Shown piece after piece: positions 16,666 through 25,035 of a stretch of DNA of 64,000 nt. Origin of the DNA: Nitrososphaerota archaeon (GTDB taxonomy: Archaea > Thermoproteota > Nitrososphaeria > Nitrososphaerales > UBA57); NCBI GenBank assembly GCA_024860875.1, contig JACPSZ010000007.1, positions 62,001 to 126,000 of the forward strand, read 5' to 3'. How positions within the stretch are numbered: the stretch's first letter is position 1; each line of letters opens with the position of its first letter. The notes beneath the pieces are model-generated. The model was not told the DNA's origin, searched no databases, and saw nothing but the letters and a program-made list of their open reading frames with translations. The translations under genes were made by a program, and so were the position numbers.

Positions 16666-16835
16666 TTAGCTCACTCCGCAGATTGACAGACCTTGGCAGT
16701 ATGAAACAATAAGATTAATGCAAATAGCGGCTTTTGTGTAAGAGGGGAGCAACCAAAAAGATCGTAGTGCAGGTGATAAAAAAGCTCTTTGCATAGTAAT
16801 TCCCTTAAATGCCCATTTTTACTGCAGGTGCAGAA

Positions 16836-18203
16836 ATGAAGGCTAAGCAACTCCTTCCCAACCTAAATGATGAAACCATTGCAAAGATGCTCTCCGTTAT
16901 AGGTGCAAAGAGTATTGACGATTTGTTTTCAGACATTCCGAAAGATTTGAAACTGACTAGGGAGCTTAACATCCCTTCGAATATGAGCGAGATGGAAATT
17001 GAAAGACATGTGCAGGAGCTTTTGGCAAAGAATTACGTTAAGCCAACTCTGAGCTTCCTCGGCGCTGGAGCATATTCGCATTATGTCCCTGCAGTAGTTG
17101 AGCAGATAATCTCAAGGTCAGAATTTTACACGTCTTACACTCCGTATCAGCCTGAAATAAGCCAAGGGATGCTGCAGTCGCTCTTCGAATACCAGAGCCT
17201 AATTTGTAATCTTACTCATATGGACGTTGCTAACAGCTCGATGTACGACTGGGGTACGGCGGTAGGGGAAGCCGCAAGGATGGCCTTCAGGCTCAAAGGA
17301 AGAAAGAGGATTCTGGTTTCTGGCAATGTCGGCCCTGAAAGGTTCGAAATTATGAAGACCTACCTTTGGCCTTTTGATGTGCAAATTGAAGTAATTCCTT
17401 ACGACAAGAAGACTGGCAGGGCTGATCTGAATGCCGTCAAGAGCAGAATGACAGACGATGTTTCCGCTATATACGTTGAAAATCCGAACTTCTTCGGCGT
17501 CTTCGAAGATGACATCGAAGACATTGCATCGATAGCACATGCGAAGGGAGCACTTCTAATTGCGGGTATTGACCCTATCTCTCTAGGTATAGCAAAGCCT
17601 CCGGGCGAATACGGAGCTGACATTGCAGTTGGTGAAGGGCAGTCGATGGGCATGCACGTCAACTTCGGAGGGCCTTACGTAGGAATTTTCGCAGTAAAAG
17701 GAGGGCAGGAAATCATCAGGCAGATGCCGGGAAGAATCATAGGCATGACAACTACCAAAGACGGAAACAGGAGAGGTTTCTCGCAAGTCCTCCAGACTAG
17801 GGAGCAGCACATCAGGAGGGAAAATGCGACTTCAAACATCTGCACAAACCAATCGCTCTGCGCCTTGGCAGTATGCGTCTATCTGGCACTTCTCGGCGAA
17901 GAGGGGATAAAGAACATCTCGAAAAGGATCATAGCAACATCACACTATGCAAGCAAAGTTCTTTCAGAAGTTTCAAGCGTGGAGGCTCCGTATTTCGAGG
18001 GCTCTTTCTTCAGAGAATTCACTGCCAAGATTAAGAGAAGCAATATTTCGAAAAAACTTTTGCAGAGCGAGATAGTCGGAGGTCTTGATCTTAGCAGGTT
18101 CTTCCCAGAATTGAAGGAAGTGTATCTCTACTCGTTCTCCGAAATACATTCCCCCGAAGACATACAGAAACTTGCAGATGCTCTGAAGAAGGTGAAATCC
18201 TAA
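16836..18203 (+). CDS. gcvPA: Glycine dehydrogenase (decarboxylating) subunit 1
   Basis: N-terminal half of the split P-protein, 455 residues from the chosen ATG. Together with GcvPB it decarboxylates glycine using pyridoxal phosphate and passes the aminomethyl group to lipoyl-GcvH. Family segments include SFLGAGAYSHYVP, YTPYQPEISQG and the terminal region with REFTAK. The ATG at 16836 is preferred over one nine codons upstream because AGGTG precedes it at seven bases and the family N-terminus starts there; a CTTAAAT box lies about 28 bases before it. It overlaps gcvPB by one base and opens the gcv operon. Confidence 0.94.
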   Translation: MKAKQLLPNLNDETIAKMLSVIGAKSIDDLFSDIPKDLKLTRELNIPSNMSEMEIERHVQELLAKNYVKPTLSFLGAGAYSHYVPAVVEQIISRSEFYTSYTPYQPEISQGMLQSLFEYQSLICNLTHMDVANSSMYDWGTAVGEAARMAFRLKGRKRILVSGNVGPERFEIMKTYLWPFDVQIEVIPYDKKTGRADLNAVKSRMTDDVSAIYVENPNFFGVFEDDIEDIASIAHAKGALLIAGIDPISLGIAKPPGEYGADIAVGEGQSMGMHVNFGGPYVGIFAVKGGQEIIRQMPGRIIGMTTTKDGNRRGFSQVLQTREQHIRRENATSNICTNQSLCALAVCVYLALLGEEGIKNISKRIIATSHYASKVLSEVSSVEAPYFEGSFFREFTAKIKRSNISKKLLQSEIVGGLDLSRFFPELKEVYLYSFSEIHSPEDIQKLADALKKVKS

Positions 18204-19699
18204 TGGTATACCATCAAGCCGTCTGGGACGAACCTCTGCTTGCTGAGCTGCATTCGAAGGGCAAGATAGGCATCACACTCCCATCGTACAAGCAGATCGA
18301 CGATTCTCGTGCTGAATCTCTAGTGCCCAAGAAGCTGTTGAGGAAGGATGTGAAACTTCCCTCGCTTTCGCAGCCAGAAGTTGTCAGACATTTCACAAAA
18401 CTTTCGCAGATGAACTTTGGAGTCGATCTCGGGCCTTACTTTCTTGGAAGCTGCACTATGAAGCATAACCCGAAGGTCTCTGAACGCATAGCTTCAAATC
18501 AAAACTTCTCCGAACTGCATCCGTATCAGGATGAAGACTCCATACAGGGGATTCTGCAGATTTTCTACGAATTGTCCGAGATGCTAGCCGAAATTACAGG
18601 GACCAGCAGAGTTTCACTAGCACCTGCAGCTGGCGCACATGGAGAATTTGTGGGAGCCTTGATTATCAGGAAAAGGCTGCAGGAATTGGGGCAGTTAAAA
18701 GAAAGGAACGAGATGCTGATACCAGACTCTGCACATGGGACAAACCCTGCAACAGCATCAATGGCAGGTTTTAGAGTTGTGAGAATACCATCTGACAAAG
18801 AAGGGCTCGTCGATGTTGAAGCCCTGAAAAAAGTAGTATCGAAAAAAACTGCAGGAATTATGCTGACTGTCCCAAACACTCACGGCTTTTTCGAGAAGAA
18901 CATCAGAGAAATCTGCTCTACAGTAAAGGAGGCTGGAGGGTTCACATATTATGATGGAGCTAACCTCAATGCGATACTCGGCAAAGCTAGGCCCGGTGAT
19001 ATGAGCTTCGACATAGTACACTTGAATTTGCACAAAACTTTTGCGACTCCGCACGGAGGAGGAGGACCGGGAGCAGGGCCTGTGGGTGTGAAGGAGCATC
19101 TTGCAGACTACCTTCCAATCCCCTTGATAAAGAAGGGCAAGAAGTATTCCTTTGACTATAATAGACCGAAGAGCATAGGCAGGATCAAGAACTTTTACGG
19201 CAATTCAGGTCTTCTGCTAAGAGCCTATGTTTACATCAGAATGTTTGGGAAAGAAGGCCTCCCTAAAATTGCGGAGCAGTCTGTTTTAGCTGCTAACTAT
19301 CTACTAGCCAAGATCAAAGGAGAGGATTATATTCCTTCGCACAAAACAAAAGCACCAGTAAAGCACGAATTCGTAGTAAGCGTGAAGAACCTTACGGCAT
19401 CAACAGGCGTAAGGGCCGGGGATGTTGCCAAAGCACTCCTTGACGAAGGGCTGCACGCACCGACAACGTATTTCCCTCTGACAGTCGAGGAAGACCTGAT
19501 GATAGAGCCTACGGATTCCGAGCCGTTATCATCCTTGGATCGCTATGCTGAAGTTCTGAAAAAAATTGCGGAGACAGCAAGAAAAGACGCCTCGCAGATA
19601 TTCGCCTCTCCGAAAAATACTGCTGTTGGAAGGCTCGATGAAGTCAAGGCAAACCATCCTCTAACATTGACATTGAACTGGAACAAGCTCGTGAAGTAG
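18203..19699 (+). CDS. gcvPB: Glycine dehydrogenase (decarboxylating) subunit 2
   Basis: C-terminal half of the split P-protein, 498 residues, full length. It carries the pyridoxal-phosphate lysine in HLNLHKTFATPHGGGG (about Lys278) followed by the glycine-rich loop. The substrate region LGSCTMKHNPK near the N-terminus is typical. Its start codon overlaps the gcvPA stop, giving translational coupling and equal amounts of both subunits. gcvT begins two bases after its stop. Confidence 0.95.
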   Translation: MVYHQAVWDEPLLAELHSKGKIGITLPSYKQIDDSRAESLVPKKLLRKDVKLPSLSQPEVVRHFTKLSQMNFGVDLGPYFLGSCTMKHNPKVSERIASNQNFSELHPYQDEDSIQGILQIFYELSEMLAEITGTSRVSLAPAAGAHGEFVGALIIRKRLQELGQLKERNEMLIPDSAHGTNPATASMAGFRVVRIPSDKEGLVDVEALKKVVSKKTAGIMLTVPNTHGFFEKNIREICSTVKEAGGFTYYDGANLNAILGKARPGDMSFDIVHLNLHKTFATPHGGGGPGAGPVGVKEHLADYLPIPLIKKGKKYSFDYNRPKSIGRIKNFYGNSGLLLRAYVYIRMFGKEGLPKIAEQSVLAANYLLAKIKGEDYIPSHKTKAPVKHEFVVSVKNLTASTGVRAGDVAKALLDEGLHAPTTYFPLTVEEDLMIEPTDSEPLSSLDRYAEVLKKIAETARKDASQIFASPKNTAVGRLDEVKANHPLTLTLNWNKLVK

Positions 19700-19700
19700 T

Positions 19701-20801
19701 TTGAAGCGTACGCAGCTTTACAACTACCACAAAGAGCACGCCAATGTAGTCGAGTTTGCAGGCTACGAAATGCCCCTATGGTATTCCGGGATATCTGCAG
19801 AGCATCTGGCGGTCAGGAATTCGTGTGGTATATTCGATATTTCGCACATGGGGAGGCTGATAGTTGAGGGAGATGGTTCTGCAGAATTTCTTGATTATTT
19901 GGTTCCTTCAAGCGTGCCGAATCTTTCTGCTGGGAAGGGGCTATATACAGTTCTCTGCAACGAATCTGCAGGAATAATCGACGACATCATCATTTATAGA
20001 CTTGCGGATAAGTTTCTCGTAGTAGTCAACGCTGCAAATTTGGAGAAAGACCTGCAATGGATGAACTCCAAGAACAATTTTGGTGCAATAATATCCGATA
20101 TTACCATGAAAAGTTCCATGTTAGCAGTACAGGGCCCTCAAGCCGTAGAAGTTTTGCGCAAGGCTTTGGGAATAGACCTTTCAGGGATGACAAGGTTCGG
20201 CATCGCAGAGCATATTCTGCCAATCGGAAATTTATTCATAGCAAGAACAGGGTATACTGGAGAGGACGGTTTCGAAATCATCATAAATTCTGACAAACCA
20301 GAAAGAGCTCTAGCAGTATGGAACAAAATAATCTCTGCAGGTTCGCTTCCCTGCGGCCTTGGCGCCAGAGACACTCTTCGCCTTGAGGCTGGTCTGTGTC
20401 TGTACGGTCAAGATTTGAATGATAAGACAACTCCTGTTGAAGCAAGTCTCTCTTGGGTAGTTTCCAAGGCCAAAGGCAAATACGTTGGAAAGCAGATCAT
20501 TGAAAATCAAATGCAAGGCAAGGCAAGAATTTCCAGAGTCGGAATAGAAATGATCGGGCAAGGGATACCTCGGAAGGACCATCAAATTTTCAAAGGGAGC
20601 AGGATAGGCGAGATAACGTCAGGAACTTTTTCACCTTTATTGAAAAAGGGCATTGCAATGGGTTATGTTTCAAGTGAATATTCAAGTATAGGCACAGAGG
20701 TCGAGATCGACATAAGAGGACAGAGAGTCTCTGCAAAGATAGTGAAAACACCGTTCTACGATCAAACTCTGTACGGATGGAAACGAACCAAGAAGAATTA
20801 A
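19701..20801 (+). CDS. gcvT: Glycine cleavage system aminomethyltransferase (T-protein)
   Basis: Tetrahydrofolate (or tetrahydromethanopterin)-dependent T-protein of 366 residues that releases ammonia and transfers the methylene group from aminomethyl-lipoyl-GcvH to the pterin. Diagnostic motifs are the N-terminal EFAGYEMPLWYSG, GIFDISHMGR, and the catalytic-region ARTGYTGEDGFEI. The TTG start two bases after gcvPB fits the tightly packed operon. The resulting C1 units can feed the purine pathway encoded about 6 kb away. Confidence 0.95.
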   Translation: MKRTQLYNYHKEHANVVEFAGYEMPLWYSGISAEHLAVRNSCGIFDISHMGRLIVEGDGSAEFLDYLVPSSVPNLSAGKGLYTVLCNESAGIIDDIIIYRLADKFLVVVNAANLEKDLQWMNSKNNFGAIISDITMKSSMLAVQGPQAVEVLRKALGIDLSGMTRFGIAEHILPIGNLFIARTGYTGEDGFEIIINSDKPERALAVWNKIISAGSLPCGLGARDTLRLEAGLCLYGQDLNDKTTPVEASLSWVVSKAKGKYVGKQIIENQMQGKARISRVGIEMIGQGIPRKDHQIFKGSRIGEITSGTFSPLLKKGIAMGYVSSEYSSIGTEVEIDIRGQRVSAKIVKTPFYDQTLYGWKRTKKN

Positions 20802-20832: not shown

Positions 20833-20924
20833 TTGAAGTACGAAGTTCGCGACAATTTACTATAAACGGGAACAGAGTATTAGTTGGAGTTACGGATTAT
20901 GCTGCTAAGCTGCTCCACGAAGTA
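20833..20924 (+). other. gcvH: 5' remnant of gcvH in two frames
   Basis: From a TTG, the sequence reads MKYEVRDNLL, which matches the usual first residues of archaeal H-proteins, then hits a TAA. In the next frame INGNRVLVGVTDYA follows and continues without a stop into the gcvH frame. The normally intervening residues (around the HEW motif) are missing. The pattern looks like a small deletion of roughly eight codons that also shifted the frame. Confidence 0.6.
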
Positions 20925-21197
20925 GTGTACGTTAGCCTTGCTCAAGTCAATTCAGAAGTTAAGCATATGCAAAGTTTAGGCACGGTTGAATCTGTAAAAG
21001 CAGTTTCTGACATCTTCTCTCCAATATCTGGTACCATTTCAAAAATTAACGAAAAGTTAGCAATGCACCCAGAACTTGTGAACAATTCCCCTTACGATAA
21101 AGGGTGGCTGGTTGAAATTGACGCCAAGAATTTGGATGTTGAAAAGGCAAAACTCATGAGCGCAAAAGAATATTCATCTTTCATAGAGAAGCTATAG
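20925..21197 (+). CDS. gcvH: Glycine cleavage H-protein, 5' end disrupted
   Basis: Lipoyl-carrier protein. The lipoylation site is intact in GTVESVKAVSD and the C-terminal domain ELVNNSPYDKGWLVEI is well conserved. From the GTG only 90 residues can be made, about 35 fewer than the family, so the first beta strands of the lipoyl domain are missing. Upstream codons in the same frame encode GVTDYAAKLLHEV, clear H-protein sequence lacking a start codon, and the true N-terminus is in another frame. Either the gene is decaying, expression needs a frameshift, or the assembly has an indel. Without a functional H-protein the glycine cleavage system would depend on another copy. Confidence 0.75.
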   Translation: MYVSLAQVNSEVKHMQSLGTVESVKAVSDIFSPISGTISKINEKLAMHPELVNNSPYDKGWLVEIDAKNLDVEKAKLMSAKEYSSFIEKL

Positions 21198-21199
21198 TT

Positions 21200-21421
21200 T
21201 CATTCTTTCTTGTATTTGCTCAGAAATGTTGCTCCAAATGCACCCATAATTAACAGGCCAAACGCATAAAATAGCATAGGCAAAGCGTAAGAGAAACCTT
21301 CAGCACCGACCAAACGATCAATAGAATTCTGAGCCGTCAAATACCTTATTGCACTGAATATCAAGGCCAGCCCGCTTACAATAACTATCAATATGCCTGC
21401 AATGGTGAAACGCGAAACCAT
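21200..21421 (-). CDS. Small two-helix membrane protein, unknown function
   Basis: Protein of 73 residues with two hydrophobic helices (about residues 5-25 and 46-66) joined by a short polar loop and a lysine-rich C-terminus (SKYKKE). A TAATATAA box lies about 24 bases before the ATG, which fits a leaderless transcript and supports a real gene. It is convergent with gcvH across two bases. No function can be assigned. Confidence 0.6.
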   Translation of the reverse strand: MVSRFTIAGILIVIVSGLALIFSAIRYLTAQNSIDRLVGAEGFSYALPMLFYAFGLLIMGAFGATFLSKYKKE

Positions 21422-22692: not shown

Positions 22693-25035
22693 ATGACCAG
22701 ACATATAGTCTTGAGTCTGATTGTGGCGGCAGTACTATTAGCTTCAGCGCTAGTAGTGGCACTAACACCTCGGGTAAGCGCATTCGATCCTGGAGGTCCT
22801 CCGGTTGGAGGAGCAGCTCCAAGTGTAGTAACAGGAAACTGGGAATGGATCAATTACCAGCCAACAGGAGGCAGCTACAGTCCCCAAAACCAAATCAATA
22901 AGGGTAATGTTCAATTCCTTGAAACAAAATGGGTCTTCCCATTTCCCCACGCACCAGCCATTACAGGAAGAATAAACGAAGCGTATGGAGCGAAGGCACC
23001 AACACTCATAGTGGACGGTATAGCATATGTAGCGGCGCAGGATAGAAGGATATTTGCAATAGACGCCGGAAATGGTAGGCTGTTATGGTCGAATGACTAC
23101 CCTCGCACTTCTTGGAATCTGACCCAGGCTAGGATCCTTGCTGGGCCGGCAATAGTAGGAGCGACCGCCCTTATATCAGGTGATATACATGCAATGAACT
23201 ACTACCGAGATAAAGGATGGCTGATCCCTCAGGTTAGGAATTGTATGGTATATGCCGTTGATGCTAAGACTGGAAAGACAGTTTGGAATATTGAGCCATG
23301 GGTATTGTGCGGAACTGCAGCGGAGTTCGGCGGTGGAAACGTCGTGGGGGCTGCACAAGGGACAATAGCTGGAGGGTTCCAGGGAACAACAACAGGCCAT
23401 GCGCATCCTCCGCAATTCCTAGGTAACATAATGTTCGTCCCGATAGGAGGAGGAAGTGGTAATGGTGGCAGGCCTTTCGTAACAGCCTTCGACATGAGTA
23501 ATCCCCAGAACCCCCAGAGGCTCTATAGAGAATTCCTGCAGCCTCCGCCGAGCGGAGATCCAGAATGGGCCATAAAGGAGTGCGCCAAAGTCAATGGTAA
23601 TGGCTGGTACTTTGAGTATCCAAGATATTTAGAGAGCGTTAACTACCCAGCTAGAGACAGAGCACCAACATATCAGGCAACGAAGTGCACAGATGTGCCT
23701 GCTGATGTTGTAAGAAACGACGGGATTGATCTAGTACCAGGATCGCCAACGTTTGGAAAGATGCACACAGCTACCAACTTTGGTTCAGCCGTATGGGGTA
23801 ACTACCCAATGGATCCTGAAACAGGTCTTGTATACATAGGATGGGGAGATCAGGGACCATACACGAACCTCACGCACAGATACGGACCTAACATACATGG
23901 TAGCGGACTTACGGTACACGATGTCAGGACAGGAAAGATGGTATGGTGGTTCCAGTCTGTCATTCATGACTTATGGGACTATGACTGTGCATGGTCAGGA
24001 ATACTGGGACAGGTGCAAGGAAAGAAAGCCTACATCAAGGGCTGCAAAGATGGAATAGTGCGTGCAATGGATGCAGCAACAGGTCAACCACTATGGACAT
24101 TTGATCCTCCAACGATTCTAAGAAATGCAAAAGGACAGAACTATGGTGTCGGATCTAACAACAGGCCAACAGATGCTGACGCATGCTGCAGATTGATAAA
24201 GGAACACATGAGCAAGCCGTGGATGCACTATCCTAGCAAGGAGCAGATACTACTTACATGCTACACAACATGCCTAGAGTCTGACATAGCATATGATGGA
24301 AAGAATGTCTACATAGGTTCGTTCAATGCTGGTGTAATGCACACAGTAACAAACGTTAGACCTTTCGGCAACCAAGGTGTAGGTGCATTGGGTGGTGAGG
24401 CGAATGCACAGCTGAATCCAGCGTTCACCAACAATACTAACATCAGGAGCGTGACCAATACCAACATCTACGCTGTAGATGTCAATACAGGACGCCAGGT
24501 ATGGACATTCAGACAGGAAGATACTTCGTTCAGGGGAGGCCTTTCGATATCAGGTGGCATGGTCATATACTATGATGGCGATGGTAATCTCAAATTCCTC
24601 GACACAGATAATGGCAAAGTTCTCGCGGAGAAGTTCTATGGATTCCCAGTAAGAATGATGCCTACAGTCGGTGCTTCAAAGGATGGCAAGATGAAGATCT
24701 TCCTATATGTTGGCAGTACAGCATCTAGGGCTGCTTGGTTACCGGCTAGCGACGGGACTCTAGTCGCACTGGGACTACCTGACCAACTACCACAAGCACA
24801 AGTAATAACGAAAGAAGTCATTAAAGAAGTACCTAAGGAAGTGATCAAAGAAGTCATCAAGGAAGTACCAGGTAAGGAAGTGATCAAAGAAGTCATCAAG
24901 GAAGTACCAGGTAAGGAAGTGACCAGTACCGTCACCGTTGAAACTATCAGCCCGATATCCTATGCTGCTATCGGCATAGGAGTAGTGCTCGTAGTCATAT
25001 CAGGAGTACTATTCAGCAGAAAGAAGAAGGCATAG
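22693..25035 (+). CDS. Secreted, membrane-anchored PQQ-dependent dehydrogenase-like protein
   Basis: Beta-propeller protein of 780 residues. A signal peptide (residues 1-30) is followed by tryptophan-docking repeats such as TGKTVWNIEPW, TGKMVWWFQSV and TGQPLWTFDPP. The quinoprotein motif HDLWDYD (about residues 425-431) contains the aspartate expected at the active site. After the propeller comes a repeated KEVIKEVP stalk, then a C-terminal transmembrane helix with a lysine tail, so the enzyme would sit outside the cell on the membrane. The family oxidises alcohols, aldoses or related substrates with pyrroloquinoline quinone and calcium or a lanthanide; the substrate is unknown. No PQQ biosynthesis genes are nearby. 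Similar proteins are reported from heterotrophic Thaumarchaeota. Confidence 0.85.
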   Translation: MTRHIVLSLIVAAVLLASALVVALTPRVSAFDPGGPPVGGAAPSVVTGNWEWINYQPTGGSYSPQNQINKGNVQFLETKWVFPFPHAPAITGRINEAYGAKAPTLIVDGIAYVAAQDRRIFAIDAGNGRLLWSNDYPRTSWNLTQARILAGPAIVGATALISGDIHAMNYYRDKGWLIPQVRNCMVYAVDAKTGKTVWNIEPWVLCGTAAEFGGGNVVGAAQGTIAGGFQGTTTGHAHPPQFLGNIMFVPIGGGSGNGGRPFVTAFDMSNPQNPQRLYREFLQPPPSGDPEWAIKECAKVNGNGWYFEYPRYLESVNYPARDRAPTYQATKCTDVPADVVRNDGIDLVPGSPTFGKMHTATNFGSAVWGNYPMDPETGLVYIGWGDQGPYTNLTHRYGPNIHGSGLTVHDVRTGKMVWWFQSVIHDLWDYDCAWSGILGQVQGKKAYIKGCKDGIVRAMDAATGQPLWTFDPPTILRNAKGQNYGVGSNNRPTDADACCRLIKEHMSKPWMHYPSKEQILLTCYTTCLESDIAYDGKNVYIGSFNAGVMHTVTNVRPFGNQGVGALGGEANAQLNPAFTNNTNIRSVTNTNIYAVDVNTGRQVWTFRQEDTSFRGGLSISGGMVIYYDGDGNLKFLDTDNGKVLAEKFYGFPVRMMPTVGASKDGKMKIFLYVGSTASRAAWLPASDGTLVALGLPDQLPQAQVITKEVIKEVPKEVIKEVIKEVPGKEVIKEVIKEVPGKEVTSTVTVETISPISYAAIGIGVVLVVISGVLFSRKKKA
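24835..24912 (+). repeat. Two exact 39-bp tandem repeats encoding the dehydrogenase stalk
   Basis: Two identical 39-base units encode KEVIKEVIKEVPG twice, preceded by a partial imperfect unit and followed by a fragment. In-frame exact copies suggest recent slippage, and the stalk length could vary between strains. Confidence 0.85.

Follow-up and report, generated by a model that had tools for sequence, protein, structure and literature searches.

In simulations of the Escherichia coli H-protein (GcvH), Glu-12, His-13 and Glu-14 surround the aminomethyl-lipoate arm (available text of PMC7733448). For archaea, a related group of deep-branching Thaumarchaeota is described as having a glycine cleavage system (PMC10640624). 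PMC3904984 reports lipoylation genes as absent from the five Thaumarchaeota covered; LipL was also sought there in archaea and none was found. The GcvH-like protein LbpA cannot replace GcvH in Bacillus subtilis, according to the available text of PMC6067878. A search of the literature found nothing on gcvH of the organism studied here. P- and T-proteins without H cannot cleave glycine.

We analysed a window of 64,000 nucleotides, corresponding to bases 62001-126000 of contig C15 (276,440 bases) in G000, a draft genome of 25 contigs and 1.67 Mb that is 91.56% complete and 0.22% contaminated. On the forward strand, the window carries intact open reading frames for gcvPA (glycine dehydrogenase subunit 1, 16809..18203), gcvPB (glycine dehydrogenase subunit 2, 18203..19699) and gcvT (aminomethyltransferase, 19701..20801). 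As the earlier note had stated, the P- and T-proteins are intact: all three pass their NCBIfam cut-offs, with 602.7 bits for gcvPA (NF001696, cut-off 364), 678.6 bits for gcvPB (NF003346, cut-off 441) and 400.3 bits for gcvT (TIGR00528, cut-off 235.85). Their identities to the homologues in G001, which alone of the 60 relatives searched belongs to the same genus, are 85, 89 and 83%, respectively, and gcvPA and gcvPB have no stops. The gcvH gene follows these three, keeping its association with gcvP and gcvT; as no further gene of the run comes after it, losing it has no polar effect. On its 3′ side the ORF list has a convergent 73-aa ORF (21200..21421, reverse strand); judged by eye, a similar ORF adjoins gcvH in G001. 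Further along the window, a 780-aa ORF (22693-25035) resembles by eye a secreted propeller of the PQQ-dehydrogenase type that carries a KEVIKEV repeat as well as a C-terminal anchor.

The gcvH span, 20833-21197, has no single open frame running from start to stop. The 5′ remnant (20833..20865, forward strand) begins with a TTG, encodes MKYEVRDNLL and stops after these ten residues at a TAA (20863-20865). The remainder of the gene (20865..21197, forward strand) lies in another frame, which keeps the lipoyl lysine site VESVKAVS; it is in this frame, not that of the TTG at 20833, that INGNRVLVGVTDYA... sits. Measured to the stop, the gene has 365 bases in the window versus 396 in the intact, 131-codon, TTG-initiated gcvH of G001 (locus L019), a difference of exactly 31. 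The frame is lost because the number of missing bases is not a multiple of three. Global alignment gives five equal placements of the deletion, the leftmost at 20864..20865 (forward strand) and the others a few bases rightward. In the relative, the missing codons spell the YTKEHEWAKI-L stretch, i.e. the EHEW strand and its flanks. Thus the frame-breaking deletion, the missing HEW-region codons and the perfect lipoyl site downstream, all described in the earlier note, were borne out, and only its size for the deletion, about 25 bases, needs correction. The EHE of the lost EHEW is the counterpart of E. coli Glu-12, His-13 and Glu-14, and since it is gone an in-frame tail product would still lack the shielding residues.

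The first 32 bases of the gene differ at one position between the window and L019, and the TTG start is the same. The tail scores 117 bits against Pfam GCV_H (PF01597) and 112.2 against TIGR00527, slightly below the cut-off of 115.85. Because the two parts match one gene at one and the same place, and given the tail score, chance is excluded as their source. We saw no second lesion in the tail, whose frame stays open between 20808 and its stop codon at 21195-21197 (130 codons, stop counted). The first usual start codon in this frame is a GTG at 20925; no ATG, GTG or TTG was found before it, and the non-usual codons are an ATA at 20862, exactly at the junction, and a CTG at 20910. A search of 20833-20865 for a slippery heptamer found none, and programmed frameshifting was rejected on this ground.

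A comparison with close relatives, as the earlier note had proposed, showed an intact orthologue at the same locus in both G001 (L019) and G003 (L014). In a contig scan, the nearest named records to the window gcvH were Thaumarchaeota/Nitrososphaerales MAGs, with three loci at 50-59% identity, which are too distant to settle strain variation. We read 28 GcvH-type frames, part of the matches listed; two of them, L016 and L032, are identical in gcvH motif and probably represent one record. The lipoyl lysine, in an ESVKAVS-type motif, was kept in all 28, the window tail included, and the HEW of the EHEW strand in 26, the exceptions being the window gene and L025. The L025 match (contig C54 of G004) begins 129 bases from the contig end and has its N-terminus replaced by unrelated sequence, whereas G006, from the same genus as G004, has a gcvH with a full N-terminus. 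L025 is probably an assembly chimera, and N-terminal truncation as a trend in the family was rejected.

Comparison of the gcvH tail with that of G001 gave 45 synonymous differences (pS 0.66) and 15 nonsynonymous ones (pN 0.062). With G003 as outgroup, two amino-acid changes are window-only versus three G001-only (104 codons, stop included); a second comparison over 108 sites gave two versus four. The corresponding counts for GcvT are 9 versus 17 with G003 as outgroup and 11 versus 11 with G006, and those for GcvPB 6 versus 8 and 9 versus 13. There was thus no excess of amino-acid change on the window lineage relative to G001 in the gcvH tail, GcvT or GcvPB, and the earlier note's alternative of a changed complex is not supported. 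The pattern of substitution indicates that selection on gcvH either continues or lapsed only very recently. Given normal constraint on the tail, the lesion would be very recent, segregating or not real; the lack of excess change is expected from a very recent lesion and equally from an artefact.

The quality of contig C15 was assessed by a stop/frame sweep of ortholog-like pairs against contig C1 of G001. The sweep flagged 7 of 109 pairs, and 3 of 108 in the reverse direction; it could not flag gcvH itself, the 5′ piece being too short. All ten flagged pairs were read and judged to reflect ORFs called too far upstream of the real start codon, antisense ORFs or end differences, so errors are not widespread in the contig. 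A control on the lengths of mechanically called ORFs picked out 10 of 117 pairs both ways, and in the window direction gcvH tops the list with 59 residues. Eighteen of these stem from a mechanical upstream start in G001; the loss counted from the TTG is 41 residues, which is not above several other flagged pairs, most of which look like start-codon differences. In this control, therefore, gcvH does not stand out by size, and there is no sign of a broadly broken contig.

The earlier note had offered a second gcvH elsewhere in the genome as one way out. A PF01597 profile search of the whole assembled G000 (91.6% complete) gave two places, the window gcvH and C23:6257-6604, and no functional spare. 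The second match is part of a 219-aa GcvH-TusA fusion (L002:1228-1887, reverse strand), in which a GCV_H domain is followed by a TusA domain. The position of the lipoyl lysine is Thr in this protein and also in its counterpart in G001, where gcvH is intact. A carrier lacking the lipoyl lysine cannot hold lipoate, so the fusion is not a replacement for GcvH and was rejected as a spare. Among 11 proteins that match the fusion better than GcvH, L026 included, the lipoyl position is Lys in three, Arg in five, Thr in two and Asn in one; this type may be a sulfur carrier in which the H fold is put to use without lipoate. The GcvH-like loci L027-L031 and L101-L104, together with L002, have open frames of ~220-265 aa, and by eye a rhodanese-looking ORF adjoins the fusion gene in L002. 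The ∼8% of G000 that is unassembled could hide another gcvH, although the gene is expected in the operon.

G000 has further lipoate genes: lipA (C8:156419-157300), a 2-oxoacid dehydrogenase E2 (C8:154225-154899), Lpd (C15:31362-32732) and an LplA/LipB-type transferase (C8:153610-154170). The transferase is the single PF21948 match in G000, as there is a single one in G001, and the PF03099 lipoate transferase profile matched neither genome. The transferase, E2 and lipA cluster at C8:153610-157300. With these genes and Lpd present, gcvH is not the sole lipoate client, and since LipL was not found in archaea, E2 is not expected to receive lipoate by relay from GcvH. The cell could thus probably bear the loss of gcvH. 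Serine hydroxymethyltransferase (SHMT, PF00464) has one match in G001 and none in assembled G000. The 640-660 kb stretch of G001, before SHMT, can be followed on contig C8 of G000 as far as position 233,234, at the end of this 233,908-base contig, and the stretches around and after SHMT have only weak or no DNA matches in G000. SHMT loss as a sign of pathway decay was dropped because the syntenic stretch runs off the end of C8; its absence may be an assembly gap.

The deletion stands in the assembly between intact neighbours, relatives keep the gene intact, and the assembled genome has no lipoyl-competent spare. Our preferred reading, at a probability of roughly 0.6, is a very recent loss-of-function allele present as ordinary gene loss; a very recent or segregating null allele is the most likely explanation, and an artefact comes next. 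A single deletion of ∼31 bases near the 5′ end would have removed the EHEW strand and broken the frame. Ribosomes starting at TTG 20833 would halt after ten residues, and no usual start would restore the lipoyl domain with its N-terminal strands. The P- and T-proteins would then be encoded but lack an aminomethyl carrier, glycine cleavage would be off in the cells carrying the allele, and lipoate assembly would remain useful for the 2-oxoacid dehydrogenase E2. That living cells carry the deletion, and that it has this metabolic effect, is inferred. An artefact, less probable than such an allele and still a serious contender, would mean that the population gcvH is intact and that the consensus either reflects a minor strain path or is wrong here through misassembly, low coverage or a polishing error. 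Assembly errors account for many of the apparent pseudogenes in assemblies, according to a published survey (PMC11017572), and G000 is a 25-contig draft at 91.6% completeness with normal signs of selection on gcvH, gcvT and gcvPB. The only other truncated H, L025, is probably an artefact of the same general kind, with G006 intact. However, the contig extends over 276 kb with sound orthologues wherever compared, and a clean loss of 31 bases with no long repeats or homopolymer is unusual for a sequencing error.

Two further explanations keep an H-protein at work, and both are improbable. The tail could still function without its N-terminal strands, by frameshifting or from the non-standard ATA at 20862, which overlaps the stop; 110 codons of its frame are open and under constraint and the ATA falls exactly at the junction, yet the 5′ piece has no slippery heptamer, no ATG, GTG or TTG is suitably placed, and the product would be without the EHE, whose counterpart holds the arm in E. 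coli H and which is kept in all other GcvH-type frames read except the contig-end L025. Slightly more doubtful again is the specific proposal that the lineage runs glycine cleavage with a truncated H started at the ATA overlapping the new stop, without the EHEW arm shield. We give least credence to a takeover by the GcvH-TusA fusion as aminomethyl carrier: assembled G000 has no GCV_H protein besides it and the window gene's, but its lipoyl position is Thr, likewise in G001 with its intact gcvH, and the related LbpA is no substitute for GcvH in B. subtilis.

If the null allele is real, a Nitrososphaeria-type archaeon is losing glycine cleavage and keeping lipoate assembly for its 2-oxoacid dehydrogenase, and the orphaned P and T genes would show pathway loss caught at its first step. 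If it is an artefact, the locus is a warning against scoring glycine cleavage as absent from the G000 draft. Either way, this is a small point on one genome.

In terms of known systems, the window gene is like GcvH (PF01597, TIGR00527) in its place in the operon, its lipoyl lysine motif and its 117-bit tail match, and differs in the frame broken after codon 10 and the missing EHEW strand. The GcvH-TusA fusion of related archaea shares the GCV_H domain and is unlike GcvH in its extra TusA domain, its mostly replaced lipoyl lysine and its different locus; in the LbpA of sulfur oxidisers, by contrast, the lysine is strictly conserved (PMC6067878, available text). Unlike the five Thaumarchaeota covered in the accessible part of PMC3904984, G000 has lipoylation genes. 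We saw no difference between the window gcvH and recent prokaryotic pseudogenes, with which it shares one indel that breaks the frame of a gene still constrained elsewhere. Most likely it is a well-known gene showing ordinary loss, or a strain or assembly artefact, rather than part of a changed complex.
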